Positions 11,151 through 48,052 of a DNA stretch of 51,737 bases are shown here, in pieces. The DNA lies in the NCBI GenBank assembly GCA_030041335.1, contig JASHOB010000074.1:1-51737 (forward strand), written 5' to 3'. The notes under the pieces were generated by a model. The model was not told where the DNA came from. It made no database searches and worked only from the letters and a program-made list of their open reading frames with translations. The translations under genes were made by a program, and so were the position numbers. Numbering within the stretch: position 1 is the first letter of the stretch; each line of letters starts with the position of its first letter. This DNA comes from Alphaproteobacteria bacterium. GTDB lineage: Bacteria > Pseudomonadota > Alphaproteobacteria > ATCC43930 > CGMCC-115725.

Positions 11151-11231
11151 GTTGGTGATTCTAGTGGATTTGCTTCTGCCGATTCCAGTCGCTACCTTAT
11201 GTCAAATCTTTATGCATCAGGAGCCCAGACG

Positions 11232-13928: not shown

Positions 13929-13929
13929 A

Positions 13930-32781: not shown

Positions 32782-33642
32782 GTGACGCTTATCCTGCCGC
32801 GCGTACTGCACGAAGACCCGGCGCTTTATGACGGCGAGAGCCTGCAGCGCCGTGATCCAAGCTACATCCGCGATCTCATGCCGTTTCAAGAGGCACTGTT
32901 CCGATACTATTTTCGGGTGGAGACGCGCGGCTTCGGCCGCATGCCGAAGGATCGGCCATTTTTGATGGTCGGCAACCACAATGGCGGTCTCGCCGCGCCG
33001 GACACCGGAATGACGATGCACGCGATTCTGCTTGCGCGCGGCGTCGACGCGCCGATCTACGCTCTTGTCCATCCGAATATTTTTAAGCAACCCTACCTCA
33101 ATGTTCATGCCATGAAGGTAGGGGGCATCGCCGCAACCGCGCGAATGGCGCTCAAGGCGATCGACCAGGGCGCCCCGCTTTTCATCTATCCGGGCGCGGG
33201 CGACGACGCCTACAAGCCCTTCGAGGCGCGACACAAGATATCATTCTTTGGCAACGACGCCTTCGTCCGCCTGGCGCTGCGGTTTCGGATTCCGATCGTG
33301 CCGGTGATTTCCATCGGCGCCCACGAGACGCTGATCGTATTGGATGATGGACGCCAGCGGGCACGCGAATGGGGGTTGTCGGAGTTGGGGGTAGAGCGGC
33401 TTCCCTTGACCTACTCCTTCCCCCACGGGTTGGCCCTGGGAGTGAACTTTTCGATCCCGTTCCCGGCGCGGATGGAAATCGAAATGGGCCCGGCAATCGA
33501 ATTTCCCGACCACGGCCCGAAGAGCATCGGCGATCGCGATCTGGTGAAGTTCTGTTACGACCACGTCGAACGCGCGTCGCAAGCCATCATGGACGGCTTG
33601 CTCGCTCGGCGGCGGCGCCGCGAACTTCTGGCCCTAGCCTGA
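32782..33642 (+). CDS. PlsC-like lysophospholipid/glycerol acyltransferase
   Basis: A 286-residue acyltransferase. GTG 32782 follows AGGAGG at a good distance. The active-site motif is NHNGGLAAPD with His66 and Asp74, a longer H-x7-D variant than the usual HxxxxD, as in the hemolysin/DGAT-like branch. The second motif is IYPGAGDDAYKPF, matching the PGG block of that branch. It would transfer an acyl chain from acyl-ACP or acyl-CoA to a lipid alcohol; the acyl carrier protein encoded at 40570 could be the donor, which is inference. The polyprenyl synthase follows two bases after the stop, so they are coupled. Confidence 0.85.
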   Translation: MTLILPRVLHEDPALYDGESLQRRDPSYIRDLMPFQEALFRYYFRVETRGFGRMPKDRPFLMVGNHNGGLAAPDTGMTMHAILLARGVDAPIYALVHPNIFKQPYLNVHAMKVGGIAATARMALKAIDQGAPLFIYPGAGDDAYKPFEARHKISFFGNDAFVRLALRFRIPIVPVISIGAHETLIVLDDGRQRAREWGLSELGVERLPLTYSFPHGLALGVNFSIPFPARMEIEMGPAIEFPDHGPKSIGDRDLVKFCYDHVERASQAIMDGLLARRRRRELLALA

Positions 33643-33644
33643 AC

Positions 33645-34715
33645 GTGTCGACGATCAGAGAAAAAGAGCAGGTGAGCCGGCCGGCGCGGTCGACTGATCA
33701 TTTTTTTAACGTGCTTGGCGACTATCGCGACCGTGTATTGGATCGCATTTGTGCGCTGGTGCCGAAAAACCGCTACCAACGAACGCTCTACGCGCCGATG
33801 CTCGAATATCCCCTGCGCGAGGGCAAGGGATTTCGACCCGCCTTGTGTCTCGCCGTATGCCAGGCGTGCGGTGGTCGTCTGGAGGAAGCGCTCGACACAG
33901 CGGCGGCGCTCGAGATGTTCCACAATGCCTTCCTGATTCACGACGATATCGAAGACGAGTCCGAGACGCGCCGCGGACATCCGACGCTCCACCAGAAATA
34001 TGGTGTGGCGATCGCGACGAACGTGGGCGATGGCCTCAATATGCTGGCGATGCGGACGTTGCTGGGAAATACCCGGCGGCTCGGATTGCAGAAGGCGCTC
34101 GCCTTGATTTTTGAAGTCGAGCGCATGGCGCGAGAATCCACCGAAGGCCAATCGATCGAGCTCGATTGGGTGAAGTACGACCGGCCGGATGTGACGCTGC
34201 GCGATTACCTGACCATGATCTACAAAAAGACCTGCTGGTATACCTGCATCTCGCCGATGCGGACGGGCGCGTTGATCGGCAACGCCGGCATCGATTGCCT
34301 GGATGCGTTTATTCCCTTTGGGTTTAAGGTTGGCGCCGCATTTCAGATCCAGGACGATATCTTAAACCTCACGGCCGAAGAGGCGCTCTACGGCAAGGAG
34401 ATCGGCGGCGACCTGGCCGAAGGTAAACGCACGGTGATGTTCGTCCATCTGTTGCGTCACGCCGGAAAAGCCGACTGCACTCGCATTTTGGAGATCTACG
34501 GCCGCGCGCGGGGCGACAAGACGGTCGAAGACCTTGCCTTCGTTCTCGATTGCATGCACCACTACGGCTCGATCGAATTTGCGCACACCCTGTCGCAGTC
34601 GCTTACCCTTTCTGCTTCGCGCATCTTCGAACGCCGCTTCAGGTGGATGGCGCCCAGTCCCTATCGGCAGTTTCTTGAAGAAATGATTGATTACATGATT
34701 GACCGGCCTCTTTAG
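33645..34715 (+). CDS. Polyprenyl diphosphate synthase with DDxxN second motif
   Basis: A 356-residue trans-isoprenyl diphosphate synthase that condenses isopentenyl units into a C15-C20 or longer chain. GTG 33645 sits two bases after the acyltransferase stop. The isopentenyl site GKGFRP is at 60-65 and the first aspartate motif HDDIEDE has Asp100, 101 and 104. The second motif is QDDILN (Asp237, Asp238, Asn241) where bacterial enzymes usually have DDxxD. Eukaryotic type III geranylgeranyl synthases also carry DDxxN after FQI, as here (FQIQDD). Its last 77 bases overlap the convergent SCP2-like gene. Confidence 0.9.
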   Translation: MSTIREKEQVSRPARSTDHFFNVLGDYRDRVLDRICALVPKNRYQRTLYAPMLEYPLREGKGFRPALCLAVCQACGGRLEEALDTAAALEMFHNAFLIHDDIEDESETRRGHPTLHQKYGVAIATNVGDGLNMLAMRTLLGNTRRLGLQKALALIFEVERMARESTEGQSIELDWVKYDRPDVTLRDYLTMIYKKTCWYTCISPMRTGALIGNAGIDCLDAFIPFGFKVGAAFQIQDDILNLTAEEALYGKEIGGDLAEGKRTVMFVHLLRHAGKADCTRILEIYGRARGDKTVEDLAFVLDCMHHYGSIEFAHTLSQSLTLSASRIFERRFRWMAPSPYRQFLEEMIDYMIDRPL

Positions 34716-35133
34716 GCGCGGTGTCGCTGCGGAACGAAGTGAGCAGTGTCCGCATCTGGCGCGACCGGATGGCGCCATCGGCGAATGCGATGCAAGCGCG
34801 CGATATGTTCGGCAGCAGCCTGACATCGCCCCAGACGTTGAGCTTGCCCATGGTGACGCAATCCATCATGTCGGCCTTGCCGTCGATCAATGCGAGAATG
34901 GTCTTGCGGGTTGCCTGGACGAAAACAGTTGCGTCGGCAGGCAAGGGCTGCAAATGCAGCTCCGCGTCGGCGCAGTGCAGGCTGAACAGCTCGCCCTCGA
35001 CATCGAACGTTACCGACAACCCGTTCATCTCGCGAACGAGCCGGTAGTAAGCCGCGAGCGCATCGCAGCGCAAAATGCGGAGCGCTTCTTCCAGCGTCGC
35101 CGCGACCGTGTGGCCGTTTCCGCGGCGATCCAC
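34639..35133 (-). CDS. SCP2-like sterol/lipid-binding protein
   Basis: A 164-residue protein whose residues 35-140 follow the SCP2 pattern: VTFDVEGELFSLHCADAEL, then TRKTILALIDGKADMMDCV, then KLNVWGDVRLLPNISRACIAF. SCP2 domains bind sterols, fatty acids or isoprenoid lipids in a hydrophobic tunnel. GTG 35133 lies three bases after the CrtC-like gene's stop, so it is the last gene of the ispH operon. The tail (about 25 residues) is encoded by DNA that also encodes the C-terminus of the polyprenyl synthase on the other strand. Confidence 0.75.
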   Translation of the reverse strand: MDRRGNGHTVAATLEEALRILRCDALAAYYRLVREMNGLSVTFDVEGELFSLHCADAELHLQPLPADATVFVQATRKTILALIDGKADMMDCVTMGKLNVWGDVRLLPNISRACIAFADGAIRSRQMRTLLTSFRSDTAPKEAGQSCNQSFLQETADRDWAPST

Positions 35134-35136
35134 CGC

Positions 35137-36171
35137 TCAGGCCATAAATTCAAAACAGCCGCGGGTGACGAATTCGACGGCCGTCCGGCCGAATTCGCCG
35201 CGAACGGTGCAGTTGCCGACGGTCTCATTGAGACCGACGACACCGAAACCGAAATCGGTCGGCACCGACACCTGGAGGGCGCCATCGATGCGATAGTCAA
35301 TGTCGATCCAGTCGTCGGCATCCCTGGCAGAAATGCGGTATTCTATAGGGATTTCAAGTACTTGCCCCCACTCTATCAGGCGCGCGGGGCCCGGCAACCG
35401 CGGAATCCGTCCTTCGAACCGGCCGAAGCGGCGGGCGCGGATCATTTGGCGGGTGAAGAGTTTCGCCAAGGTGCCGTTGTGCCAAACGCCCAACGTCTGC
35501 TCGAGCACCTGGCGTCCGTCGCGGTCCGTTGTCCGGTCAAATACCAGGGCGGTTTGGCCGGCGTCTTGCGCCGGCGCCATGAGTGTTCCCCACTCCCAGC
35601 CGAAATCGTCGCCCCATTTCCACTGGCCCCAATTGTGGTCGTGATAGGCCAGGGCATCGGTAAACGAGATCGCGGTGTCGGTTAAGGCAATGCGGCCAGA
35701 CGCAGACAGAGCCGGAACGATCAGCCAATTGAGATGTCCACTGCCGATTGGCGTGTCGTTCCAGATCAGCATCGGCGACGCCCGCGGCACCAATCGCGCA
35801 GTCAGTGAAAATTCCTCATCGCGGAGATGGATCGCCAACTGGTACGCGCCGTCGACATACTCGACGCGATTCCCCGACAGCTTCAGGGACAGGCGTTCCG
35901 CATTCAGGCTCGCGGCTGCGGCCTCGTAACTGTCAATCGATCCGGACCAGCCATGCGAGGGCCGGTGACACAACGCGATCACGTCGGCCGTCGCCATTCC
36001 GGCGCGAGTCACGTCGCCGGAAAGGCTGACATTGGCAATAATGTCGGCATCGTGTTGCACATCGGTCAGCGTAAAGTGAAACCATTCTTTGAAGCTGCTC
36101 CGTCCCGGGGCGCCTGGCGGCGGCAAATGCGGGCGATCGACAATATCGAGGATTTGCCGAATATCCTTCAT
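35137..36171 (-). CDS. CrtC/hydroxyneurosporene synthase-like (AttH lipocalin-type) protein
   Basis: A 344-residue protein of the CrtC/AttH superfamily, double beta-barrel proteins that include carotenoid 1,2-hydratase. The conserved block YHDHNWGQWKWGDDFGWEWG is at 176-195, with the ligand-side His and Trp residues of the family. CrtC adds water to a terminal isoprene double bond, so a terpenoid substrate is plausible. No other carotenoid genes (crtB, crtI) are in the window, so the carotenoid function should not be assumed. It sits in the ispH operon, 15 bases after the small protein gene. Confidence 0.8.
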   Translation of the reverse strand: MKDIRQILDIVDRPHLPPPGAPGRSSFKEWFHFTLTDVQHDADIIANVSLSGDVTRAGMATADVIALCHRPSHGWSGSIDSYEAAAASLNAERLSLKLSGNRVEYVDGAYQLAIHLRDEEFSLTARLVPRASPMLIWNDTPIGSGHLNWLIVPALSASGRIALTDTAISFTDALAYHDHNWGQWKWGDDFGWEWGTLMAPAQDAGQTALVFDRTTDRDGRQVLEQTLGVWHNGTLAKLFTRQMIRARRFGRFEGRIPRLPGPARLIEWGQVLEIPIEYRISARDADDWIDIDYRIDGALQVSVPTDFGFGVVGLNETVGNCTVRGEFGRTAVEFVTRGCFEFMA

Positions 36172-36186
36172 GGTGGCGCTGCCATG

Positions 36187-36411
36187 TCACCGAAGAATCG
36201 GATCACGGAGAGGCTTTCGTGAACGCGCCCCATTCGCGGGCAGGTCTTCGGCGGCCGCGCCGCCGCTTCCCAGTCCTGGCAACACCCTGACGATCTGTTC
36301 GGATGCCGAGATCAGACCAAGCAGCAAAAACAGAAAATTATTCCGTTGCGCAAAGCGCATGGTCTCGAGCCCCGGCGGGCGCGGCTCAAGACTATGGGGC
36401 GGTCCGCTCAT
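36187..36411 (-). CDS. Unknown small protein with one hydrophobic segment
   Basis: Product of 74 residues, family not recognised. A hydrophobic helix (NNFLFLLLGLISASEQIV, about 24-41) may cross or lie on the membrane, and the C-terminus is basic and flexible. Its ATG overlaps the stop of the next upstream gene by four bases (ATGA) and the CrtC-like gene follows after 15 bases. This tight packing is the main reason to accept it as real. Confidence 0.65.
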   Translation of the reverse strand: MSGPPHSLEPRPPGLETMRFAQRNNFLFLLLGLISASEQIVRVLPGLGSGGAAAEDLPANGARSRKPLRDPILR

Positions 36412-36866
36412 CGGTTTTCCGCCGCCTCGGCTTGCGACGTCGCGGCAATACCGGCGGCAACCTGGCTGATTTGTGTCAAGATCTCTTCGATTTCGGCGGT
36501 GGCAAGCTCACGCAATGCCGACTCCAACATGGTGATGGGCCCATCTTCAAAAGGTTCTGCATTGCGCAAGTGATAGTCGATGTTGGCGCGGCTCCAAATG
36601 AGCCAGCCGCGATTGACCAACGGCGAATCGCCGAGAATGGAAACCCAGCGGCGGCCCTCCGGTGTCTCGGCATAACGCCGGCCCTCATCGATTAAGGATT
36701 GGATCAGGTTGCGCACGGCCTTCTTCGCGTCGTCGCCGGGACCCGCCAGCGCTCCGAGCAGCGCGCCAAGCGGCCCCAATCCCAGCAAGGCCGACGCCAA
36801 CCTGTCGGTCGGCGTGGGCGGTGGATCGCGGATCACCAATTTGGGTATCGCGACCATGGTCGTCAT
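36408..36866 (-). CDS. Unknown 152-residue alpha-helical protein
   Basis: Not recognised. A Pro-rich start (VIRDPPPTPTDRL) leads to a small-residue hydrophobic stretch (LGLGPLGALLGALAG, about 28-42), then acidic amphipathic helices (AKKAVRNLIQSLIDEGRRY; LESALRELATAEIEEILTQI). The pattern suits a membrane-associated or self-associating helical protein. It overlaps the genes on both sides by four bases, so it is made together with them from the ispH operon. Confidence 0.75.
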   Translation of the reverse strand: MTTMVAIPKLVIRDPPPTPTDRLASALLGLGPLGALLGALAGPGDDAKKAVRNLIQSLIDEGRRYAETPEGRRWVSILGDSPLVNRGWLIWSRANIDYHLRNAEPFEDGPITMLESALRELATAEIEEILTQISQVAAGIAATSQAEAAENR

Positions 36867-37666
36867 GGTTTTTTGCGGGCGGTCTTCGCCGGCTTGAGGC
36901 CCGAGCGACCTGCCGCGGCGCGTGCGTCGATCTTGGGGCGGTGCCGTCGCGTCTTCGCCGGCGCCGGCTCTGTCACCAACGCCGGCGCCGGCACGGGCAC
37001 CAAAGATTCGGGTTCCGATACGGGGGAAATGACCGCGCCGGGCGGGCGCTCAACATGAAGGTTGATTAAAAGCTGCGTACCCTCGAGCCCCGTCACCGTT
37101 ACGGTCGAGAAGTAATCCTCGTCGACGCGAAACGCGTCGCTGACGGTGAAGATCAGCTCTATCTTCTTTTCTTGCCCAGGCTGGATTTGCAGGTTCGGCG
37201 GGTCGAAGGCGGTCTGCGACGCAATCAGCTGACTCCCGTCCGCGCTGGCAAAGGGCGTCGTTTCGAAGGCGACGTCGATCGGGGCCTTCTTGTTGTTCTC
37301 GAGATGAAACGGCGCCCGGACCACCGCACCCGGTTGTGCCGACAGGACCATGTTAGCTTGCGTTCGGGCCGATTCGGCTGGCTCGGCCATGCCGTTCAGC
37401 CGCTCCATGAGGCGATCATTGAAAGCGAGTGTCAGCCCGACGAGTGTTTCGTAGTAATCGAGGTGCTCCTTGATGCTCGCGCGCAATGCCCGCATCGCCG
37501 CGTCACCGGTGTCGGGCCGCCGAGCCAGGTCGCCGATATACCGCGCCAATTGTGCGTTGACTTCGACGGTGCGCGCATCGGCGCGCATTTTTTGTGTCAG
37601 CAGTCGCGATACCTGGTCTCGCAGTTCTGGATCAGACAGAAGACGTCTTAGATTCTCCAGGTTCAA
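36863..37666 (-). CDS. Unknown protein: helical N-terminus, Ig-like beta domain, basic tail
   Basis: A 267-residue protein, not recognised. TTG 37666 has AGGAG six bases upstream. Residues 1-100 are helical (LRRLLSDPELRDQVSRLLTQ opening). Residues 105-210 alternate in a beta-sandwich manner (VVRAPFHLENNKKAPIDVAF; QIQPGQEKKIELIFTV; TQLLINLHVERP), like Ig-like or bacterial carbohydrate/adhesion folds. The tail is Pro/Ala-rich, then Lys/Arg-rich (TRRHRPK, KTARKKP). No signal peptide. It is the first unknown gene after ispH, 42 bases downstream, and overlaps the next gene by four bases. Confidence 0.78.
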   Translation of the reverse strand: MNLENLRRLLSDPELRDQVSRLLTQKMRADARTVEVNAQLARYIGDLARRPDTGDAAMRALRASIKEHLDYYETLVGLTLAFNDRLMERLNGMAEPAESARTQANMVLSAQPGAVVRAPFHLENNKKAPIDVAFETTPFASADGSQLIASQTAFDPPNLQIQPGQEKKIELIFTVSDAFRVDEDYFSTVTVTGLEGTQLLINLHVERPPGAVISPVSEPESLVPVPAPALVTEPAPAKTRRHRPKIDARAAAGRSGLKPAKTARKKP

Positions 37667-37708
37667 TATCGGCTCCTGTCCTGTGGCACGTAATCTTGGA
37701 ACGCCATT

Positions 37709-38668
37709 CTATCGAGTCGCTTGCTTAACGCCGGTCTGTTCGAGCTCGCGAGGCATGCGGAACTGGACCGTCTCGGGTCGGCCAATGGCCTCCTCCCGCA
37801 GATCGGGGTACCAGGCGCGCAAAGTCGCGAGCAGATCCGTGACCAGGTATTCGGGGGACGACGCGCCCGAAGTGATGCCGATCGTTGTCATACCCGTCAG
37901 CCACTCGCGCTTCACCTCGCGGGCGCAATCGACGAGATATGCCGGGGTGCTCCGGGCAAGCGCCACTTCCAACATGCGCACGGAATTCGAGCTGTGCCGA
38001 GCGCCCAAAATGATCACGATGTCGCTCAGATCGGCCAGTTTTGCGACGACGCGCTGCCGGTTCTGCGTTGCGTAGCAGATGTCGTCGGCTTGCGGACCGA
38101 CGATGTGTGGGAACCGTTCCTTCAATACGCCGATGATTCCGGCGGTGCTGTCGGCGGCAAGCGTTGTCTGCGTGACATAGGCGACATTGTCCGGATCCTC
38201 TATCGTCACGGCACGCGCCTGGTCGTCGTTCTCGACGACGATGATGCGGGCACCCGGCCGCGGCTCATAATGCCCCACCGTGCCGATGACCTCGACGTGT
38301 TCGGGATGCCCGATCACCAGCACGGTGCGGCGATTGCGAGCGTGTTTCGCAACTTCGAGATGGACTTTTTTCACCAACGGACAGGTTGCGTCGATGACGC
38401 GCAACTGCCGATCCTCCGCCTCGCGCCAAACAGCGGGAGCCACGCCATGAGCGCTGAAAATCACAATGGCGCGTTGCGGCACATCGTCGAGATGATCAAC
38501 GAAGATAACGCCGCGTTCACGTAGCGATGCCAGCACATGGCCGTTGTGAACGATCTCGTGGCGAACGTAGATCGGTGGACCAAACCGCTCGAGTGCAGAC
38601 TCGACAATACTCACGGCGCGATCGACGCCGGCGCAAAAACCCCGTGGACTCCCGAGAAGGACTCGCAT
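37709..38668 (-). CDS. ispH: 4-hydroxy-3-methylbut-2-enyl diphosphate reductase
   Basis: Last enzyme of the MEP pathway, making IPP and DMAPP with a [4Fe-4S] cluster. ATG 38668 gives the family start MRVLLGSPRGFCAGVDRA; an ATG at 38680 is nearer to GGAGG but too close. Cluster cysteines are Cys12, Cys96 and Cys198, with His41 and His74 also in place. At 319 residues it is complete. It leads a six-gene operon with three unknowns, a CrtC-like protein and an SCP2-like protein, so it probably supplies isoprenoid units to that pathway, perhaps as a second copy. It is divergent from the acyl-AMP ligase, with 231 bases between. Confidence 0.93.
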   Translation of the reverse strand: MRVLLGSPRGFCAGVDRAVSIVESALERFGPPIYVRHEIVHNGHVLASLRERGVIFVDHLDDVPQRAIVIFSAHGVAPAVWREAEDRQLRVIDATCPLVKKVHLEVAKHARNRRTVLVIGHPEHVEVIGTVGHYEPRPGARIIVVENDDQARAVTIEDPDNVAYVTQTTLAADSTAGIIGVLKERFPHIVGPQADDICYATQNRQRVVAKLADLSDIVIILGARHSSNSVRMLEVALARSTPAYLVDCAREVKREWLTGMTTIGITSGASSPEYLVTDLLATLRAWYPDLREEAIGRPETVQFRMPRELEQTGVKQATR

Positions 38669-38899
38669 AGCGCCCCCCATGGCCTCCGATGGATCGCTGA
38701 CGATCCCCCCCTTCGGCTGCGCTGTCAGGCCATGTTATCGACCGCACATCTCAATAGCAACAAACTGATGCGGCCGACGGGCTCGAAGCCATCCCGAACC
38801 TGTCGCATTTGCCTTGTATTTTCGCGGCCTTTTTTTGGGCGTGAGGACGCCAATGGATTGTGAGGATCGCCGAGCGTATAGTTTTTTGGGGGTCGGGGC
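38669..38899. promoter_or_regulatory. Divergent promoter region, ispH operon and acyl-AMP ligase
   Basis: The 231 bases between the two start codons must carry both promoters. They are less GC-rich than the neighbours, with a T-run at 38829-38835 and another near 38881. No clear dyad or known operator was seen. Shared control of the two transcripts is inferred from this layout. Confidence 0.4.
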
Positions 38900-40573
38900 A
38901 TGCATTTCGGCGACAAGCCATTGACATTGGCCGATGCGCTGGCGCGCACAGCAGCAGGATACCCTGAACGCGGCGTGACAATTCTAACTGGCCGGCACGG
39001 TCAAGGCCGGGTCTTCTATTCTGACTTGTTCGCCCGGGCGAGCGAGGTGGCGCGGCATCTGACGGGGCTTGGATTTCGACGCGGCGACGCGCTCGTGCTC
39101 GCCCTGCCGACGTCGGCGGCGCTCATCGAATTGTGGCTTGGCGCCGTGATGTGCGGAGTCCGTCCAGTCGCCGTGGCCCCGCCAATGCCGTTGGGCGATC
39201 TCGCGGCAACAGTCAACCGGCTGACCAGCGTCGCGGTTGCGGTTGAGGCACGCTGCCTCATCGTCCCTGAGACATTGAAAACACGCTTCGGACCCGAAAT
39301 TCCCGCTCATTCGCCAGAAGATGTACGAAGCGCGCCATCGCAATCATTTCTCAACGATGCAGCGCCGGACGAGATCGCCTTCTTGCAACTGACCGGCGGG
39401 ACGACGGGGATGCCACGTGCTGTCGCGATTTCTCATCAGGCGGCGCTTGCGAATGTTGCGGCAGCGCACGACGCACTGCTGCAAGGCGATGCGGCTTCAA
39501 GACCGTTTGAAACTGTCGTTTCATGGCTGCCGCTGCATCACGATCTCGGCCTCGTTGGCGCATTCCTGTCGTCGATCATCGTCGGGTGCGACCTCTGCCT
39601 CATGGCGCCGCAATTGTTTTTGGCGCATCCCGCGCTCTGGTTTGGACAGATCGCCACGAGCCAGGGGGTTTTATCGCTCTCGCCCAATTTCGGTCTGCAA
39701 CTTTGTCTCGATCGGCGCGCCTCGGTTCCGGAATCCGGCGATCTTTTGAATTGGCAAGCGGCCATTTGCGGCGGCGAGATGCTGAGGCCTGACACGCTCT
39801 TCGGTTTCGCCGCGGGGTATCGGTTACCGTCGACGGTGCTGAGGCCAAGCTACGGCCTCGCCGAGGCGACGGCCGCCGTAACCATGGACCGCGCCCGTCG
39901 GGGACCACATACTCGGCCGGCGCCGCCGCACACCACCGATCGCTTCGCACTGTCCGAGGTCATTTCTGTCGGTGCTCCTGTTTCCGGCACGATCATCCGG
40001 ATCGCCCGCCCCGACGGAAGGGTCGTTCGTGAGGACGAGGAAGGCGACGTCCTCGTCGCCGGTCCTGGGTTATTTTCGGGGTATATCGGCGATGCCGCGA
40101 AGACGCGTTCGGTCTTGCGAGATGGTTGGCTGCACACCGGCGATCTTGGCTTCCTTCATTGCGGCGAGCTCTACCTTACCGGTCGAAAATCGGACAGCCT
40201 GATCATCCGCGGCACGACATTCAGCCCGCACGATCTCGAGTGGATTGCCGAAGCCATTGCCGGAGGCGGCGGGCGCCATCGTGCGGCGGCATTTTCGGTT
40301 GCGCGCGACAATGCGGGCGAACTGGCCATTCTTGCTATCGAGACCAGTGAAAGGGATCCTCGAAAACGCGCGGCAATCGAGGCGGATCTTCGCCGGAATA
40401 TCGCGGCCAAGCTCGCCCTTCAGCTTTCCGACGTTGTCTGGCTCAGAACCGGAAAGCTGCCACGGACAACGAGCGGCAAGATCCGACGCGGCATGACGCG
40501 ACAGCTTTATCAGAGAGGCAGGCTCGATCGGATCGATGCGCCCGGTCTCGCTGCCAGCGTTACCGGCGCATGA
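38900..40573 (+). CDS. Fatty-acyl-AMP ligase-like adenylating enzyme
   Basis: A 557-residue ANL-superfamily enzyme that activates a carboxylic acid as an acyl-adenylate. The phosphate loop is LTGGTTGMPRAVAISH, the FAAL-typical segment is SWLPLHHDLGLVG, then YGLAEA, HTGDLGF and the catalytic lysine in PRTTSGKIRR. The LPLHHDLGL block points to FAAL rather than acyl-CoA synthetase, and the overlapping ACP gene (ATGA) supports transfer of the acyl group to ACP, not CoA. The chain length is not predictable. Its product could feed the acyltransferase at 32782. Confidence 0.88.
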   Translation: MHFGDKPLTLADALARTAAGYPERGVTILTGRHGQGRVFYSDLFARASEVARHLTGLGFRRGDALVLALPTSAALIELWLGAVMCGVRPVAVAPPMPLGDLAATVNRLTSVAVAVEARCLIVPETLKTRFGPEIPAHSPEDVRSAPSQSFLNDAAPDEIAFLQLTGGTTGMPRAVAISHQAALANVAAAHDALLQGDAASRPFETVVSWLPLHHDLGLVGAFLSSIIVGCDLCLMAPQLFLAHPALWFGQIATSQGVLSLSPNFGLQLCLDRRASVPESGDLLNWQAAICGGEMLRPDTLFGFAAGYRLPSTVLRPSYGLAEATAAVTMDRARRGPHTRPAPPHTTDRFALSEVISVGAPVSGTIIRIARPDGRVVREDEEGDVLVAGPGLFSGYIGDAAKTRSVLRDGWLHTGDLGFLHCGELYLTGRKSDSLIIRGTTFSPHDLEWIAEAIAGGGGRHRAAAFSVARDNAGELAILAIETSERDPRKRAAIEADLRRNIAAKLALQLSDVVWLRTGKLPRTTSGKIRRGMTRQLYQRGRLDRIDAPGLAASVTGA

Positions 40574-40833
40574 GGAAAAACACCTGGACCACGGTGCGCG
40601 AACTCGTTGGAGAGGTCAGCGGCGTTGACATTGCCGCGTTCAATAAAGACGCCGATCTGTTTGCTGACTTTGGCATCGATTCGGCGAAAGCGCTCGAATT
40701 GATTGTCGGGCTTGAAGACGCATTCGACATCACTATCAGCAGCGCAGAGGCCGCCGATATCTCGACGCTAGGCGACCTCGTCGACCTCGTCACCCGCCTA
40801 CGCAAACCAAACTCAAAGGTGCGGCGCCGCTAA
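40570..40833 (+). CDS. Acyl carrier protein
   Basis: An 87-residue carrier protein. The phosphopantetheine serine is Ser38 in DFGIDSAKALELI, the standard DS motif slightly modified (DSAKAL instead of DSLxxV). The rest (four helices, acidic, with a short basic tail KVRRR) fits an ACP. It overlaps the stop of the acyl-AMP ligase by four bases and is most likely its dedicated partner. It ends 18 bases before the convergent cysteine-rich protein gene. Confidence 0.9.
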   Translation: MRKNTWTTVRELVGEVSGVDIAAFNKDADLFADFGIDSAKALELIVGLEDAFDITISSAEAADISTLGDLVDLVTRLRKPNSKVRRR

Positions 40834-40851
40834 CGGTCGGCTGGTGCGCAA

Positions 40852-41595
40852 TCAGCAGCAGCAATCACATTCGCAGACGACGTGGTAAGGCCCGCAATCG
40901 CGCGGCAGCAACGCCACCGCGATTCGCAGCGAGCGAATGTCGCAGCCCTCGACGCGACAATCGGCATAGCAAACGAGACAGTCATCGACATCGATCGGCT
41001 CCTTGCGGCCCTCTTGCGAGCCGGTCGTCAAGCGATCGAAGGGCGCCTCAACGATCAAATTTATGCAGTGGGTCGCGCAGGGACCGAGTTTGAATTCGGG
41101 CGCCGGAGGCAAGAACCGCGCCACGATCGGCGCGGGATGTCCGCCGCGGGTGGTCCATCCACTCAAGTCGAGTTTGATCTGCCGTTCTCGGCGCCACCGG
41201 TTTTCAAAACACAGCGGAATGACGCGCGTCTCGCCGAGCCGGGCATAGACGACGAGATCGGCATCGACGATGCAGCAATTACAGTGACAGGGATCATAGT
41301 GGCCGCACGGTTCACAGCATTCGTCGCGGCGCGACGGCCCCCACTCTTTCCAGCGTTGCGGGGCACGGCTATAGGCATAGCGGCCGCCACGCATCGTTCC
41401 TTGCGTGCCGCCAATCGTATCGGACAGGTTGGCGAAGGCTTGACGCACACCATCCGCGATCGGCCCGATTAGCCCATCCGAGATGAACCGGTTCATATCG
41501 GCGCCCGACGGCATCGGGTTCGCCGTCGCACCCCCCCAGCCCGATGCGGGCATCATCTGATCAGGTCGAATGCTTGCTGTTTCGAAATAATTCAT
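40852..41595 (-). CDS. Unknown cysteine-rich beta protein
   Basis: A 247-residue protein, not recognised. Cysteines cluster in three places: ECCEPCGHYDPCHCNCC (about 92-108), CLVCYADCRVEGC (about 205-220), and the last residues CECDCCC. The middle looks like a beta sandwich (ARLGETRVIPLCFENR; HCINLIVEAPF). A Gly-rich N-terminus precedes it. There is no signal peptide, so the cysteines are more likely metal-binding or cluster-forming than disulphides, or the protein becomes oxidised outside the cell by an unusual route. The ATG overlaps the Ig-like gene's stop by four bases. Third gene of a minus-strand trio. Confidence 0.78.
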   Translation of the reverse strand: MNYFETASIRPDQMMPASGWGGATANPMPSGADMNRFISDGLIGPIADGVRQAFANLSDTIGGTQGTMRGGRYAYSRAPQRWKEWGPSRRDECCEPCGHYDPCHCNCCIVDADLVVYARLGETRVIPLCFENRWRRERQIKLDLSGWTTRGGHPAPIVARFLPPAPEFKLGPCATHCINLIVEAPFDRLTTGSQEGRKEPIDVDDCLVCYADCRVEGCDIRSLRIAVALLPRDCGPYHVVCECDCCC

Positions 41596-42398
41596 TTCCG
41601 TCTCCTAACCCTTTCGATGCCGGCCGGCACGACCAAGATTCTCAAATTGTCATCGTAAATGTAGGCGACGGCCGCATAGCGTGCATTGGCCTCCAAGCCA
41701 TCGGGAATTCGGATGTTGAAATCGATGGTCGCCATGGCGCCGGGTGCGATCTTCACCGGATCTTCCGGTCCCTCGACCCAAAGAAGCCCGGTCTTCTTAA
41801 AAAGCTCATTCGTTTGCCGCAGATAGGCATTGAGCCAATCGTCGAAGGTCTTCGCTTCATCGGCCGCTTGGTGAAGGGTGGCGCGTATCGTGCGGCAAAT
41901 CCCGAGTTCGTCGTCGAGAGGCACGGCACCAATGCGGCCGATATCGATCGCGACATTGCCGCGATTAGCAAAGGTAACGCGTTTGTGAGCGCGTGAACCG
42001 GGACTATTTTCGACAATCAACGGATTGGGCGACATGTCGAAGTCAAGGTTCTCGGCAACATGAAGCACAGCGGGATACCGGTAATCTCCCAGCGTCAGCG
42101 CCGCTTGGTATTGGCCCGGCGGTGTCTGCGGATGGATGCTCGCCCGAATCTTCAGCACCTCGCTGCCACCGGGCGCCAAAATGCCGATCATCGACACCGC
42201 AACACTATGCAACATGGCCGCCGGCAAGCGATGTCCCGCGCCGCCCTCAATGTCGAGACGACCAGGCCGCAAAAAAACCCGCTCATCGCCGGGGTTTTTG
42301 ACCGATACTTCGCCTCTCAAACGCCCCGGCGGGCCCATCAAATGAATTGGCCGCTCTGTCGAGTGGTCGACGATTTCGTAGCTCGGAAGTGCGCGCAT
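41592..42398 (-). CDS. Unknown protein with two Ig-like beta domains
   Basis: A 268-residue protein, not recognised. Two beta-sandwich-like halves are suggested: residues 20-125 (RGEVSVKNPGDERVFLRPG; LKIRASIHPQTPPGQYQAAL) and 140-265 (RVTFANRGNVAIDIG; AMATIDFNIRIPDGL; YAAVAYIYDDNLRILVV). The pattern of N-P-G turns and P-G-Q-Y recalls COG1470/NEW3-type Ig-like domains. There is no signal peptide. It is translationally coupled to the cysteine-rich protein and resembles in style the Ig-like protein at 36863-37666, so both sub-clusters carry such a protein. Confidence 0.78.
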   Translation of the reverse strand: MRALPSYEIVDHSTERPIHLMGPPGRLRGEVSVKNPGDERVFLRPGRLDIEGGAGHRLPAAMLHSVAVSMIGILAPGGSEVLKIRASIHPQTPPGQYQAALTLGDYRYPAVLHVAENLDFDMSPNPLIVENSPGSRAHKRVTFANRGNVAIDIGRIGAVPLDDELGICRTIRATLHQAADEAKTFDDWLNAYLRQTNELFKKTGLLWVEGPEDPVKIAPGAMATIDFNIRIPDGLEANARYAAVAYIYDDNLRILVVPAGIERVRRRK

Positions 42399-42438
42399 CG
42401 TCTAGGCCAGCTTTTGCTTCCCCCCCGACTCGGTCTCG

Positions 42439-42930
42439 TTAAGGAACGCGTATCCGGACGGATTGTCCGCCTTCCATGGGATGATGCGGATGTGGGTGCG
42501 GCGCGAACTGGGCCGCGTCACCGACGACAACCGGCTGGCGGCTAAGATCCTCAATTACCGTTGTGCTGTCATCCACATAGTTGAAGCCCATGACCTCGAC
42601 GCCCAAAACGGTCAATCCGAAGTGACGCGAAACGGGCTTGCAAATCTTGGTCGACGGAAAGCGCTCGAGTCCGACTTTGAAGCAAAAATCGATCTGCAGC
42701 GGCTTCAAATCCATCTCGACAGCGGTCTTGCTGTCAGAATTGGAATCTGCCTTGAGACGGATATTGTCTAATCCGACAATTTTAAATTCCGCATTCGCTT
42801 TGCTGTCGATCTCATTTTTTGAATTAGAATTTGAGGTAATGGTCGATTCGGACTTCGAATCGATCTGTGATTGCGAATTAAAGTTAATCGTGTCGGGAAT
42901 ATTGATCGAAACGCCGCCACCACTAGGCAT
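42439..42930 (-). CDS. Unknown Ser/Asn/Asp-rich protein
   Basis: A 163-residue protein, not recognised. Residues 10-70 are rich in Ser, Asn, Asp and Lys in an alternating pattern (NFNSQSQIDSKSESTITS; SNSDSKTAVEMDL), which suggests beta-strand stacking or a flexible linker. The C-terminal half is more ordinary, with His-rich PHPHPHHP near residue 145. The DNA of the first half is clearly more AT-rich than the surroundings, a sign of transfer or of selection for this composition. It leads the minus-strand trio, with GGAGGG before the ATG and 40 bases to the Ig-like gene. Confidence 0.72.
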   Translation of the reverse strand: MPSGGGVSINIPDTINFNSQSQIDSKSESTITSNSNSKNEIDSKANAEFKIVGLDNIRLKADSNSDSKTAVEMDLKPLQIDFCFKVGLERFPSTKICKPVSRHFGLTVLGVEVMGFNYVDDSTTVIEDLSRQPVVVGDAAQFAPHPHPHHPMEGGQSVRIRVP

Positions 42931-43512
42931 GGTGCCCTCCCAAGCGGTTTGAATTAAGAGAGGCTGGTACGGGGAAGCAGAACAAATTATGTTACCTCGT
43001 TAAGCGACAACCGTCAAACGAAGTCCGCTGGTTGGCACCACCCGGTTGCGAGGATTGGGGCGAACCGCCAGGACTTGGCCTTGTTGTCGTAACGATCTAT
43101 TCAAAGTACAGTGCCAAGAGGGGATCGGCGATCGCGCGCAGTCGCTGTCGGTACCGGGGTTTTTGACCACCAGGGTTTTGTTTCCGCGGTCGATATTGCG
43201 GACCTCGCCGTGCCCATCGTGGCATCGACCATGCCGTTCTATTGGCAAGTTCGGATCTGCAACGAGCTATCGATTTCGACACCAACGCGCAATTTAGGGG
43301 CTGAACCGGCAAGGTTTACACAGGCGTCCCGATGATTGAGATCGCTGATTTTTCCGGCGGCCGCGGCAAAGTCGCGATCTGCGGCGGGTCTTGGACGTGC
43401 CTTTGTCCTGAAGTGCTGCGGCAGCACCGTTGTGTATTGGTGGTTGGCGAAGCTTGAGCGGGACCGACAGCGGTTCCACATGCGCCGAACGGCTGAGGAA
43501 GGGGGCCAATGG
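42931..43512. other. Intergenic region with one possible small gene
   Basis: 582 bases between the divergent unknown trio and the cobalamin-radical SAM gene. It should hold both promoters; an AT-rich patch at 42981-43002 is the likeliest for the trio. The stretch 43000-43266 may encode a short protein or remnant. Nothing else is recognised. Confidence 0.45.
43000..43266 (-). CDS. Possible small gene or remnant
   Basis: An open frame on the same strand as the trio, about 82 residues from TTG 43248. It has beta-like segments (NKTLVVKNPGTDSDC; GLRLTVVA) reminiscent of the VKNPG turn in the Ig-like protein. There is no ATG and no clear ribosome site, and an upstream stop lies near 43267. It may be the C-terminal remnant of another member of the set. 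Weak call. Confidence 0.3.
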   Translation of the reverse strand, partial: LVADPNLPIERHGRCHDGHGEVRNIDRGNKTLVVKNPGTDSDCARSPIPSWHCTLNRSLRQQGQVLAVRPNPRNRVVPTSGLRLTVVA

Positions 43513-45099
43513 ATGAGGTTCAATCCCCATATTCTCATGGTCTTTCCCCAGTTCCCGGCGCGGACTTTCTGGAGCTTGCGAGCGGCCTGCGAATTCTTTG
43601 GCGCCCGCTGTCCAGCACCGCCCCTTGGCCTGATCACGGTGGCGGCTTTGCTGCCGCGCGAATGGCCGGTGCGGCTCGCCGACCGCAACGCCGAGGTGCT
43701 GACGGAGGCAGATCTCAAATGGGCTGACTTGGTGATGACGGGGGGCATGCTGTCCCAACGGCGCGACACACTCGCTGTCATCGCGTTGGCCCATTCCTAT
43801 GGCAAGCCGGTCGTCGTGGGCGGCCCCGACGTCACTTCGAGCCCGGAGGAATATCCCGCAGCCGACTTCCGGGTCCTGGGTGAGGCCGAAAATCTGCTCG
43901 ACCAATTTATCGCGGCATGGCGCGCTGGCGCACGCCAGGGAACCTTCGCCGGCGAACGACCCGACGTCGACGTCACCAAGTCTCCGGTCCCGCGTTTCGA
44001 TCTCCTGAACTTTAAACACTACCTCAATATTGGTGTTCAGTTTTCGCGCGGCTGCCCGTTCAATTGCGAGTTTTGCGACATAATCGAGCTCTATGGCCAT
44101 GTCCCCCGGGCCAAATCCAACGAACAAATGCTGCGTGAGCTCGAAAGCCTATATTTGGCTGGTTATCGCGGCCATGTAGATTTCGTCGACGACAATCTCA
44201 TCGGCAACAAGAAGGCGCTAAAAAGGTTTCTGCCGGTCTTGCGCGAATGGCAGGCGGCACGGCGCTATCCTTTTCAATTTTCGACCGAGGCCTCGATAAA
44301 TCTCGCCGACGATGCGCAGCTCCTGCAAATGATGCGCGAGGCGAATTTCTTTTTCGTCTTCGTCGGCATCGAGAGCCCGGACTCACAAACACTGGTTGCG
44401 ACCCAAAAGAAACAGAACACCCGCCGCGACATCGCGGAAAGCGTGCACCGGCTCTACCAGGCCGGGATGGTGGTCACCGCCGGCTTCATTGTCGGTTTCG
44501 ATGCCGAAAGGCCCGGTGTGGCGGAAGCCATGGTCGGGTGCATCGAAGCCACCAGCATCCCTGCTTGCATCGTCGGGCTCTTGACCGCATTGCCGGGCAC
44601 CCAACTGACACGGCGCCTGAGCCGGGAAGGCAGGATGTTGGCGGCCGACGCGCCTCTGTGCCTCGGCGATGCGGCCGGGCTCAATTTCGTGACGCTGCGG
44701 CCGCGCAGCGAGGTGCTCGCCGATTATGCTGCGGTTCTGGAAAGCATTTACGCTCCACCAGCATATTTCGAGCGTGTCCGAGTCATGGGACGGGCGCTCA
44801 ATCTCCCGCGTTTCCACCGGTTCCCGCTTCGCGGTCCGATTTGGGGGATCCGTATGTTGGTCGCCGCGGTGTGGCAGCTTGGTATCCGCTCGACCGAACT
44901 GCGCCGCCATTTTTGGCGGACATTGATCGATATCGCGCTTCACCGAAGCGCTAACATCGAAGCCGTCGTGGGGATGATGATCTTGTACACGCATCTTGGG
45001 CCCTTCGCCCGCTACTTGATCGGCGAAGTCAACCGCCTGCTCGCCACCGCCGAGCCCGCGCTGCCCGCGGCGTCGAGATCGGCGCATTCCGCGCTATGA
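43513..45099 (+). CDS. Cobalamin-binding radical SAM protein with DUF4070, hopanoid methylase-like
   Basis: A 528-residue protein. ATG 43513 follows GGAAGGGGG. The N-terminal cobalamin-binding domain (1-150) leads to the radical SAM domain with the cluster motif SRGCPFNCEFC (Cys181, 185, 188) and then the DUF4070-like C-terminus. HpnP (C-2 hopanoid methylase) and HpnR (C-3) share this order, and stretches such as FVDDNLIGNKKALKRFLP and FSTEASINLADD fit the HpnP side best. Several alphaproteobacterial paralogues have other or unknown roles, and no squalene-hopene cyclase is in the window. It would methylate an unactivated carbon, perhaps on the lipid made by the neighbouring genes. Confidence 0.85.
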   Translation: MRFNPHILMVFPQFPARTFWSLRAACEFFGARCPAPPLGLITVAALLPREWPVRLADRNAEVLTEADLKWADLVMTGGMLSQRRDTLAVIALAHSYGKPVVVGGPDVTSSPEEYPAADFRVLGEAENLLDQFIAAWRAGARQGTFAGERPDVDVTKSPVPRFDLLNFKHYLNIGVQFSRGCPFNCEFCDIIELYGHVPRAKSNEQMLRELESLYLAGYRGHVDFVDDNLIGNKKALKRFLPVLREWQAARRYPFQFSTEASINLADDAQLLQMMREANFFFVFVGIESPDSQTLVATQKKQNTRRDIAESVHRLYQAGMVVTAGFIVGFDAERPGVAEAMVGCIEATSIPACIVGLLTALPGTQLTRRLSREGRMLAADAPLCLGDAAGLNFVTLRPRSEVLADYAAVLESIYAPPAYFERVRVMGRALNLPRFHRFPLRGPIWGIRMLVAAVWQLGIRSTELRRHFWRTLIDIALHRSANIEAVVGMMILYTHLGPFARYLIGEVNRLLATAEPALPAASRSAHSAL

Positions 45100-45344
45100 A
45101 CAGCACGGCGGCAATAGCCTGCGGCTCACGACCTAAAAGTCAACCCCATCGTGCAGTCGGCGCGGGCCAAAAACGGCGACATGGCGAGCCGCAATCTGCG
45201 CAAAAATTTTAACGGCATCAGACCATCAGTTTCGATCCGTACCGTGGTCGCTGTGTAACGGCAGGTACGGTTTGCCGTCTGCGCCACAGTCTATTCCTCT
45301 CGGCGCCTGGTGCGCCTCAAGGTCAGCGATTGTCGCAATGCGAC

Positions 45345-47711
45345 TCAGAGCCGGGCTGACCACAAACGCAATGAATTACCGATCACCGAGACCGAGCTGA
45401 AGCTCATCGCCGCTGCGGCCACGACCGGGCTCAATAGAATTCCCAAGAATGGGTACAGCACCCCGGCGGCGAGCGGAATGCCAAGAATGTTATAGACGAA
45501 GGCAAGCACCAGATTCTGTCGGATATTCCTCATGGCGGCGCGGCTCAAAGCGCGGGCTCTGGCAATGCCGGCCAGATCACCCTTGACCAGCGTGACGCCC
45601 GCGGCTTGCACCGCGACCTCGGTTTTCGTACCGATCGCAATACCGACATCCGCCTCCGCGAGTGCCGGAGCGTCGTTGACGCCATCGCCCGCCATTGCCA
45701 CGACCCCGCCGTCGCGGCGCAGACGACGCACGATGGCATTTTTCTGCGCGGGGAGCACATCCGTCTCGATTTCGGTAATGCCGAGCTTGGCCGCCACCGT
45801 TTGCGCCGTGGTGCGATTATCCCCGGTCGCCATGATGATGCGGACACCGTCCGCCCTGAGACTGGCGAGCGCCGCTTGCGTCGTCGCTTTGATCGGATCC
45901 GCGATCGCGATGATTCCCGCTGGACGACGATCGACGGCGAGGTAGATAGCCGTGGCGCCGTCGCGGCGCAGTTTCTCGGCTCGGTCTTCGAGCTCGGCAG
46001 CGCTGATCCCGAGTTGCCTCATCAGCTGGACATTGCCGGCAGCAACGTGGCGGTCGCCGATATTGCCTATCACCCCTTTGCCGGCTTCCGAGCTGAAGCC
46101 GGCAACTTCCTGCATGCCGAGCGCCCGCTCCCGAGCTGCGGTGACGATCGCAGCGGCAAGCGGGTGCTCGCTCGAGCGCTCGAGGCTGGCACCAAGCGCG
46201 AGAACGGTCGCCTCATCGAACCCCTGGACGGGCACCACCGCAACGATTCGCGGCTTGCCCTCGGTAAGCGTCCCGGTCTTGTCGACAACGAGCGTGTCGA
46301 CCTTCGCCAAGCGTTCGAGCGCTTCGGCGTTTTTGATCAGGACTCCGGCCCTTGCCCCTTTGCCAACCCCGACCATGATGGACATCGGGGTGGCGAGTCC
46401 GAGGGCGCACGGGCAGGCGATGATGACGACGGAGACGGCGGCGACCAGTGCCGAGGCGAAGGCGGGAGGTGGTGCCGAGATCATCCAGACGACAAAGGTC
46501 ACGACCGCGACAAGAATGACCGCAGGAACGAACCATGCCGAGACGATATCAACGAGTCGCTGAATCGGCGCCCGACTGCGCTGCGCCTCTGCGACCATCT
46601 CGACAATGCGCGCGAGCATCGTATCAGAACCGATTCGCTCGGCGCGCATAATGAGGCTGCCCGAGCCGTTGACGGTGCAGCCGATGACCTCGGCGCCCGG
46701 CTGCTTCTCCACCGGCATCGCCTCCCCCGTCATAACGGATTCATCAACCGCGCTCCTTCCTTCCAGAACGACGCCATCGACGGGGATGCTGTCGCCGGGA
46801 CGAACTCTCAACCGATCGCCAATGTGCACGTGTGCCAGGGGCACTTCCTCGTCATAGCCGTCATTGCCGACACGGTGCGCGGTTTTTGGCGCAAGATCGA
46901 GGAGCGCCCGAATGGCGCCGCCGGCCTTCGCGCGCGCCCGCAATTCAAGGATCTGCCCGAGGAGCACCAGCACGATGATGACGGCAGTCGCCTCATAATA
47001 GACGGGCACACCGCCGCCTTCCCGAAGATTTGCCGGAAAGAGTTGAGGCGTGAATGTCGCGGCGAGGCTGTCGACATAAGCGGCGCCGACACCGAGGGCG
47101 ATGAGGCTGAACATGTTAAGCGATCGGTTGCGCACTGATTGCCAGCCACGCACCAGAAATGGCCACCCGGCCCACAGCACGATCGGGGTCGTGAACAGGA
47201 ATTGCAGCCACAGGCCAAGGACCGGCGGGATGTAGTGGTGAAGGTTGAGCGCGGGGACGTGGCCGCCCATTTCCAGAATGACGACGGGAATGGCGAACCC
47301 AAGGCCGACCCAGAAGCGGCGCGTCATATCAAGGAGCTCCGCGCTCGGACCGTCATCGTCGAGCGCCCTTACCGGCTCCAGCGCCATCCCGCAGATGGGG
47401 CAAACGCCAGCCTGCCCTTGCCTAATCTCCGGATGCATCGGACAGGTATAGGTGGCGCCGCTTGCCGGAAGCAGGGGCAGCGCCTCGGTACGCAGGTGAT
47501 TTTCCCGCCTGGCGGCCCCGTCTGCCGACGGCGTCGCGCCGCAAGAGTGAAGCGTTGGGCTCGTGTGATCGACCCGTGTCCCCGCGTTCCCCGGTTCGGC
47601 CTTCGTCCCGCAGATTGGTGCCGTTTGCGCGCCAATGGCGCGGTCTCGGTCACCGCGCGGGTGCTGGTGATGGCACGGGTCCGAACCGTTGCCAGGTGTC
47701 GCGGCTCTCAT
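45345..47711 (-). CDS. copA: Copper-exporting P1B-type ATPase
   Basis: A 788-residue membrane pump that exports Cu(I) with ATP. It has the HMBD-type metal segment [25 protein letters not shown] (read as two parts, about 88-112), eight hydrophobic helices, the CPC motif in [11 protein letters not shown], the phosphorylation site DKTGTLT, HP in SSEHPLA, and [10 protein letters not shown]. The first 85 residues are His/Cys-rich and loosely organised. There is no HMA domain, which is common in this subgroup. It is divergent from csoR with 65 bases between, sharing its operator, so copper induction is very likely. Confidence 0.94.
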
Positions 47712-47740
47712 AAGCGGGGAACTCAGGTTATTGCCTAGAG

Positions 47741-47776
47741 CTTGATAAATATACCCTTCAAGGGTATGGTATCAAG
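47741..47776. promoter_or_regulatory. Nested dyad operator between copA and csoR
   Basis: A perfect inner dyad, ataccctt-c-aagggtat (47751-47767), lies inside a second perfect pair, cttgata (47741-47747) and tatcaag (47770-47776). The right end touches the csoR ATG. CsoR sites typically have GC-tract dyads flanked by AT, as here. Binding would block both genes. Confidence 0.75.
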
Positions 47777-48052
47777 ATGCAAGCCAAGACGAAGAAATCG
47801 GTCGCTGCCCGCTTGCGGCGCATCGAGGGCCAGATTGGCGGTTTGCTCCGGATGGTCGATGACGACCGCTATTGCGTCGATATCCTGCACCAAGCCTACG
47901 CCGTCCGCGCGGCGGTGCTGAAGGTCGAGGAAGAAATCCTGCGCGATCATGTCTCGCACTGCGTCAGTGATGCCTTTGCCTCGGGCAATCTGCTGGAGCA
48001 GCGACAAAAGGTCGATGAACTCGTCGAGACATTCGGGCGTCTGCGGCGCTGA
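47777..48052 (+). CDS. csoR: Copper-sensing repressor CsoR (DUF156 family)
   Basis: A 91-residue all-helical repressor. The metal-site residues are Cys33, His58 and Cys62, with spacing exactly that of CsoR (C-x24-H-x3-C), so Cu(I) is the likely ligand rather than formaldehyde or nickel. The ATG at 47777 directly follows the operator, and the only Shine-Dalgarno-like AAGGG is inside the operator, so repressor binding or translation control overlap physically. It is divergent from copA. Confidence 0.93.
   Translation: MQAKTKKSVAARLRRIEGQIGGLLRMVDDDRYCVDILHQAYAVRAAVLKVEEEILRDHVSHCVSDAFASGNLLEQRQKVDELVETFGRLRR

Follow-up and report, generated by a model that had tools for sequence, protein, structure and literature searches.

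What are the three adjacent minus-strand open reading frames (ORFs) at positions 40852-42930 of the window, by which we mean the whole stretch analysed (51,737 nucleotides, contig JASHOB010000074.1 of assembly GCA_030041335.1, from an Alphaproteobacteria bacterium), and what might their products do? A first-pass annotation had described the products as a Ser/Asn-rich, an immunoglobulin-like (Ig-like) and a Cys-rich protein, which as a set looked structural or metal-linked. Our analysis gives good support to the view that these proteins, ORF1-ORF3, belong with a fourth, ORF4, to one co-inherited four-protein module, which is without a known family and has strictly conserved cysteines. In the window its members are as follows.

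ORF1, 42439..42930, minus strand: 163 residues, with an AT-rich, Ser/Asn/Asp-rich N-terminal half and a conserved C-terminal half.
ORF2, 41592..42398, minus strand: 268 residues, probably Ig-like (NEW3-like), perhaps with two domains.
ORF3, 40852..41595, minus strand: 247 residues, with a CxCxCC motif, a modelled Ig-like domain at about 111-235 and a Cys-rich C-terminal tail.
ORF4, 36863..37666, minus strand: 267 residues, with a long N-terminal part and an Ig-like domain; the fourth module member.

Efforts to find relatives with single sequences gave nothing credible beyond the window, either for ORF2, ORF3 and ORF4 (99 genomes each) or for ORF1 (385 genomes of the class and 398 of the phylum); one ORF2 match from the 99-genome search (L003) was rejected, having an internal stop and overlapping an aminotransferase-like gene. 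ORF3 gave weak matches in 15 further genomes among the 398 of the phylum at E 0.1, judged to be noise after inspection of 13 of the 15 alignments, and an exact-peptide search of genome_contigs, together with plasmid, phage and viral-contig searches, yielded nothing credible beyond the window. With an ORF3 profile the window was the only credible match among those listed for the 398 phylum genomes, where relatives may be missed because at most seven candidates per genome were scored; three short stretches (31, 35 and 82 positions) with frames broken by stops were dropped. From single-sequence results alone we would therefore have concluded that the genes were orphans and possibly spurious. A degenerate DNA pattern, written to capture the ORF3 motif GCD[IVM]xx[hydrophobic][R/S][IVM]Axx[hydrophobic]2P and run over genome_contigs (described as 84,980 species), however, returned 11 stretches, nine of which are ORF3 relatives (37-53% identity by tblastn, E 8e-36 to 2e-58) and two of which (L038 and L040) are not. 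Since the pattern chose the members, conservation within ORF3 residues 217-231 is partly built in; conservation in the remainder is not.

The window and its nine relatives (L067-L072 and L074-L076) make up the set of 10 loci used here. By record title the relatives come from Aurantiacibacter, an uncultured Erythrobacter, Pacificimonas (Pacificimonas pallii WHA3), a Phenylobacterium metagenome-assembled genome (MAG), the unclassified MAG GS10, a Burkholderiaceae MAG (L072), a Nitriliruptorales MAG (Actinomycetota) and two Anaerolineae/Anaerolineales MAGs, which we take to be Chloroflexota, so that Pseudomonadota, Actinomycetota and Chloroflexota are represented; "MAG" stands in the title of L072 and five other loci, and misbinned contigs could blur this taxonomy. 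When the surroundings of the nine relatives (about 20 kb) were compared, the order and strand of ORF1-ORF2-ORF3 proved to be kept at all 10 loci, and the 4-nucleotide ORF2/ORF3 overlap at four of them (window, L070, L072 and L076). ORF4 is likewise present at every locus, some copies being tied to window ORF4 only via other members. It lies directly after ORF3 at seven loci (L067-L071, L074 and L076), and other genes separate the two in L072, L075 and the window, where the distance is 3.2 kb. The Ig domains of ORF3 and ORF4 are homologous (hhalign 94.7%, E 5.9e-8, 108 columns). The first-pass annotation had proposed a search for co-occurring sets as a check; the set is found together in 10 of 10 loci, and because all three ORFs recur in order in nine further genomes they are not spurious. 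The trio was thus a real set, drawn one member short, since ORF4 lies outside 40852-42930. Two copies at L075 deviate: the ORF2 homologue (10614-11407) is split over two frames in this MAG, reflecting a sequencing error or decay, and the ORF4 homologue (13210-14151) carries an added C-terminal helix-hairpin-helix domain (PF14520, E 2.9e-7).

Within the reach of these searches the module is rare and patchy, and in a 59-genome set only the Erythrobacter genome itself was positive. In a tree of concatenated ORF1-ORF3 from the 10 loci, with midpoint rooting only, the window and L072 are split from the other eight loci with support of 100, and the other alphaproteobacterial loci sit among those eight. 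Phenylobacterium and GS10 group with the Sphingomonadales-type loci (support 100), and this group is joined with the Nitriliruptorales locus at 78; single-ORF trees agree in the shallow groups and are weak in the deep splits. Because the window, whose neighbouring genes look alphaproteobacterial, groups apart from the other alphaproteobacterial loci, the module has probably moved between lineages. A transposase-like ORF stands beside L076.

The description of the window genes in the first-pass annotation was largely accurate. Coordinates, strand and tight arrangement are correct (a 40-nucleotide gap from ORF1 to ORF2, and a 4-nucleotide ATGA overlap between ORF2 and ORF3), and reading the sequences by eye we likewise see no signal peptide in ORF1-ORF3. 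The AT-rich Ser/Asn region of ORF1 is also borne out: GC content is 42.6% in codons 1-72 and 55.8% in the remainder of the gene, with a range of 58.0-67.5% in ORF2, ORF3 and seven other measured window genes, and residues 1-68 include 23 Ser and Asn, where these two make up 8.4% of the background taken from 14 window ORFs (binomial P 4e-9). In ORF3, 20 of the 247 residues are Cys, compared with 93 of 5,898 in the background (about 4 expected, P 4e-9); both P values are post hoc, the stretch having been chosen by the earlier annotation. The count of about twenty and the CECDCCC end were right, but three clean clusters are not seen, as the cysteines (93, 94, 97, 103, 105, 107, 108, 129, 173, 177, 206, 209, 213, 218, 234, 241, 243, 245, 246 and 247) fall into groups with a few singles. 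No Rfam match was found in window positions 36000-48500. The promoter scan (2 hits, where shuffled sequences averaged 1.0, sd 0.9) and the terminator scan (6 hits, shuffled average 3.1, sd 2.0) were not used as evidence.

Eleven of the 20 ORF3 cysteines are invariant in all 10 rows: 103, 105, 107 and 108 ahead of the Ig domain, 173, 206 and 218 inside it, and 234, 241, 245 and 246 at the C-terminal end. Ten of the 11 fall outside the search pattern, and every copy (216-285 residues) ends in CC or CCC. Such conservation suggests that a definite chemistry is under selection. The AlphaFold2 (AF2) model of ORF3 has a mean predicted local distance difference test (pLDDT) value of 65.7, the N-terminal part and the tail being poorly modelled, with low values on both sides of the domain; values of 87-94 are reached in nine of the 13 blocks of ten residues that span 111-240 and through most of 111-230, and the modelled core has eight strands between 114 and 230. 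The closest folds (VIA) include the ASH domain of CEP192 (6fvi, Z score 8.4, root-mean-square deviation 2.4 over 100) and the chaperones FimC (Z 8.3) and SfaE (Z 8.2), with 4-16% identity among the 50 matches listed; a search against viral structures gave scattered matches with low TM values and was not used. Residues 111-235 or so are accordingly modelled as an Ig-like domain of the PapD/ASH/MSP type, at the level of fold. The first-pass annotation had applied the Ig-like label to the second protein, where it is probably right, and had missed that ORF3 itself is modelled as Ig-like too. The idea that ORF3 is the precursor of a ribosomally synthesised and post-translationally modified peptide was set aside given its length and folded domain.

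The C-terminal half of ORF1 has the consensus DxxPxxxDxC...LPPTxxCxP...FGxTxxGxE; ORF1 also has a short His-rich stretch and a conserved RVRLG-like C-terminal end (VRIRVP in the window), and 10 positions are invariant in the 10 rows. The N-terminal part is variable and repeat-like, with a period of 13 in L074 and about 14 in L076; in the L074 homologue (9740-10453) the 13-residue tandem repeats are TPVGLVSTLQGGD-like. His-rich stretches occur in some homologues, with 13 His in L070 ORF3 and 12 in L074 ORF1, and are absent from others (0-1 His in the ORF1 of L067-L069, none in L076 ORF3).

We find no credible family for ORF1-ORF3 in Pfam, NCBIfam, PHROGs or PADLOC, and no PDB chain by sequence, so that the earlier statement that the set is unlike anything recognised holds against the libraries tried. 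Across the 10 members of ORF3 no Pfam family at E 0.1 is matched by more than one, and the best PDB profile match is at E 0.39 (a dynein regulatory subunit). For ORF4 the best PDB profile match, from an alignment with the L076 row in the wrong frame, is a GH123 glycoside hydrolase (E 0.03), relatives of which are also among the ORF3 fold-search matches. ORF2 stays below the gathering threshold of NPCBM_assoc, PF10633 (14.2 against 24.4 bits, E 0.05), a family weakly matched by three of nine ORF2 members at E 0.1 (best E 0.045). A literature search found no description of such a gene set, which is a weak negative for a set that has no name to search by. Occurrence in records of three phyla without an above-threshold family points to an undescribed system, and its novelty is a matter of absence from libraries and of limited literature searches, not of known function.

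The best functional clue, missed in the first-pass annotation, is the lipid- and isoprenoid-related surroundings of the module, which fall into two settings: type I at three loci (window, L072 and L075) and type II at six (L067, L068, L069, L070, L074 and L076). The tenth locus, L071, is truncated by the start of its contig, which leaves only the C-terminal part of an AMP-binding enzyme next to ORF1; such an enzyme is also near the type II module of L070. The window genes of the type I setting, with the number of loci that have them where counted, are these.

Polyprenyl diphosphate synthase, 33369..34715, plus strand: PF00348, E 3.2e-59; type I, 3 of 10 loci.
SCP2-like protein, 34639..35133, minus strand: PF02036, 25.2 bits against a cut-off of 21.3; type I, 3 of 10 loci.
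Tocopherol-cyclase-looking protein without a family, 35137..36171, minus strand: PF14249, E 0.047, below cut-off; type I, 3 of 10 loci.
ORF5, 36408..36866, minus strand: 152 residues, without a family; type I only, 3 of 10 loci.
IspH/LytB, 37709..38680, minus strand: PF02401, E 1.3e-87, and TIGR00216, 296 bits, above cut-off; type I, 2 of 10 loci.
AMP-binding enzyme, fatty acyl-AMP ligase-like, 38900..40573, plus strand: PF00501, E 4.4e-48; best NCBIfam match NF006624, 312 bits, below the cut-off of 600.
Acyl carrier protein, 40570..40833, plus strand: PF00550, E 1.1e-14; 4-nucleotide overlap with the ligase gene; 2 of 10 loci.
B12-binding radical S-adenosylmethionine (SAM) protein, 43336..45099, plus strand: PF13282, PF04055 and PF02310; divergent from ORF1, start codon uncertain; 2 of 10 loci.

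The window and L072 have 11 genes in common in the same order and orientation, including those for IspH, the acyl carrier protein and the radical SAM protein (36% identical and in the same place), the AMP-binding ligase being extra in the window. The protein at 35137..36171 presumably resembles AttH/CrtC; it has no PDB match, and its L072 copy has no Pfam match at E 0.001. Use of the radical SAM neighbour as a guide to synteny was abandoned, as a 58% relative in G017 lacks the other module genes in 38 kb, the tblastn matches there being limited to an Hsp20 and a weak AMP-binding one.

In the type II setting the module is flanked at all six loci by a large DUF362 protein (700 residues in L069, 6509-8611), with an N-terminal DUF362 domain in the two of six copies scanned. 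The type II setting also has an HpnA-like epimerase (two of six copies scanned), a possible START-like protein, and a protein of 406-416 residues that is 63-93% identical across the six loci (12022-13242 in L069, and at 8477 in L067, 7281 in L068, 5311 in L070, 10476 in L074 and 3778 in L076) and has no Pfam match in three copies and no NCBIfam match in one; by eye it is a possible beta-propeller. No locus of the 10 lacks a neighbour with a loose lipid or acyl connection, judged either from a family match of its own or from a scanned copy to which it is homologous.

Three further window features were noted. A Rieske oxygenase at 31657-32709, near the type I cluster, is closest to SdmA (4beta-methylsterol monooxygenase; 72 against 600 bits), and none of the regions retrieved around the other loci contains a counterpart. 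Next to the module, at 45345-48052, a heavy-metal P-type ATPase (45345-47711, with an HMBD domain) adjoins a CsoR-type repressor. A plus-strand frame of 1705 residues at 25385-30502 is possibly not the real coding strand and matches an apolipoprotein-type helix at 38.4 bits against a cut-off of 90.

Taken together, these features lead us to propose, with a probability of roughly 0.3, that the module may be a cytosolic thiol- or metal-linked scaffold for hydrophobic-metabolite pathways. We infer this because four proteins without recognised catalytic domains accompany two different lipid-related enzyme sets, and because both sets hold a candidate lipid carrier (SCP2-like in one, possibly START-like in the other). 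ORF1-ORF4 would remain in the cytosol and form a scaffold or coat that is not itself enzymatic; within it, the Ig-like domains of ORF2, ORF3 and ORF4 might pack with a beta-rich ORF1, and the CxCxCC motif and C-terminal Cys tails of ORF3 might join subunits via metal sites or disulphides. The assembly would hold or organise a hydrophobic product or its enzymes, the product being perhaps an isoprenoid in type I (polyprenyl synthase, IspH and SCP2-like protein) and another lipid in type II (HpnA-like epimerase, DUF362 protein and possibly START-like protein). The structural half of the earlier "structural or metal-linked" judgement fits the Ig-like domains and the lack of a recognised catalytic domain in ORF1-ORF4; a metal link would fit the 11 invariant cysteines and the His-rich stretches of some homologues.

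Several observations weigh against this proposal. The two settings share no enzyme, and the association with lipid genes is descriptive rather than statistical, having no neighbour-class background. The carriers and the epimerase are themselves uneven: the L072 copy of the SCP2-like protein has no Pfam match at E 0.1, the two scanned epimerases do not reach HpnA TIGR03466 (236.3 and 224.1 against 367.65 bits), and the START-like protein has a DUF2505/polyketide-cyclase match below cut-off in L069 (E 0.0017) and a counterpart in L067 without a match at E 0.1. A Z score of about 8 is near the level usual for models without a clear match; the ORF3 fold is generic, and a common fold says nothing on function. 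The AF2 model of ORF1 is unreliable (mean pLDDT 43.4, strands only at 94-126), and the ORF2 profile has no match to ORF3 (1.6%) and a weak one to ORF4 (23%). Cytosolic thiols are normally reduced, which weakens the disulphide version. Finally, misbinning of MAG contigs could imitate transfer between phyla.

A wider form of the scaffold proposal, which we regard as improbable, is that the four proteins would self-assemble in the cytosol, through thiol or metal links, into an undescribed bacterial compartment or coat that packages or organises isoprenoid and other lipid biosynthesis, and that is exchanged as a unit between lineages and has been adapted to two sets of enzymes unrelated to each other. 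Bolder still is the corollary that in type I clusters the C-terminal -CC/-CCC of ORF3, which resembles Rab-type geranylgeranylation ends, might carry a lipid supplied by what the adjacent polyprenyl synthase makes; as a main explanation of the tail this was set aside, seven of the 10 loci having no polyprenyl synthase nearby. If hydrophobic pathways are indeed served by the module as their scaffold or coat, it would represent a non-capsid type of bacterial compartment; otherwise, the two cluster types still mark uncharacterised lipid or isoprenoid gene sets, which are testable because named strains such as Pacificimonas pallii WHA3 are among the type II members.

Following close behind the scaffold, and possible though still doubtful, is a metal-handling module, in which the Cys-rich ORF3 and the ORF1 with its His-rich stretch would bind, deliver or store metal, for example for neighbouring metalloenzymes. 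The 11 invariant cysteines across 10 loci and the His-rich stretches speak for it, as do two members of the window cluster, IspH and the radical SAM protein, both kinds of enzyme needing iron-sulphur, and the P-type ATPase and CsoR-type repressor that adjoin this cluster. DUF362 and DUF2088 (the nickel-cofactor LarA superfamily) are placed in one Pfam clan (PMC11770544). On the other side, the His-rich stretches are not universal, no metallochaperone family is matched by the module proteins in the Pfam and NCBIfam scans, and the P-type ATPase is without a counterpart in the surroundings of the other nine loci, for which reason a copper link via this protein was dropped.

A surface or extracellular fibre, built of Ig-like and Ser/Asn-rich subunits that cysteines would cross-link once a non-classical route had exported them, is unlikely. 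The repeat-like N-terminal parts of some ORF1 homologues and the PapD-type fold modelled in ORF3 are consistent with a fibre, and Cys-rich ends could make disulphides outside the cell; ORF1 also has a weak, composition-driven match to Ser-Asp adhesins in NCBIfam (E 0.0035). Membership of the MSCRAMM Ser-Asp adhesins (ClfA/ClfB/Sdr) is not indicated, however, with a best score of 15.3 bits against a cut-off of 999; by eye the 163-residue ORF1 has neither an LPXTG cell-wall anchor nor a signal peptide, the latter being missing by the same reading from all three window ORFs, and no secretion, usher or anchoring gene is recognised among the neighbours scanned, a subset at the 10 loci. Somewhat less probable again is that the four proteins are enzymes or carrier subunits of an uncharted biosynthetic pathway, with the Ig domains as accessories. 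Such a role would suit the tight clustering with biosynthetic genes seen in both settings, but no catalytic family is recognised in any of the four in the Pfam and NCBIfam scans, and the enzymes that accompany these same four proteins differ between the settings. A role in anti-phage defence or as cargo of some other mobile element, for which the patchy distribution and the transposase-like ORF by L076 could be cited, is very improbable given that no PADLOC family matches window ORF1-ORF4 at E 0.01 and that the scanned neighbours are mostly metabolic.

How does the module compare with systems already described? In the model the ORF3 core takes the same beta-sandwich arrangement as ASH/MSP/PapD-like Ig domains, but unlike those proteins ORF3 is without a Pfam match and has invariant Cys tails, so that membership is not established; unlike in FimC/PapD chaperone systems, no usher or pilus gene is recognised among the module neighbours scanned. 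Eukaryotic MSP-domain proteins work with lipid-transfer proteins, and we liken the module to them by analogy only. ORF2 members have a weak likeness to NEW3/NPCBM_assoc (PF10633), although ORF2 is not part of a glycoside hydrolase. With regard to hopanoid and sterol clusters (HpnA, SdmB and SdmA), the nearest family for the epimerase of type II clusters is HpnA, but all such matches are below curated cut-offs, and no squalene-hopene cyclase or sterol-synthesis gene is recognised among the neighbours scanned. Spore-coat and exosporium proteins of the CotY/ExsY kind are Cys-rich, self-assembling and made in the cytosol; they serve as a working analogy only, the module matching no such family in Pfam or NCBIfam. 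The polyprenyl synthase of type I clusters has a match (E 2.9e-52) to NF041169, the cargo model of Family 2 encapsulin operons, but its 178 bits fall short of the cut-off of 450 and reflect a general prenyl-synthase likeness, and no HK97-fold shell protein is recognised among the window proteins scanned (part of the window ORFs). In concept, what we propose for the module agrees with these encapsulin operons, in which a prenyl enzyme likewise has a protein scaffold beside it.

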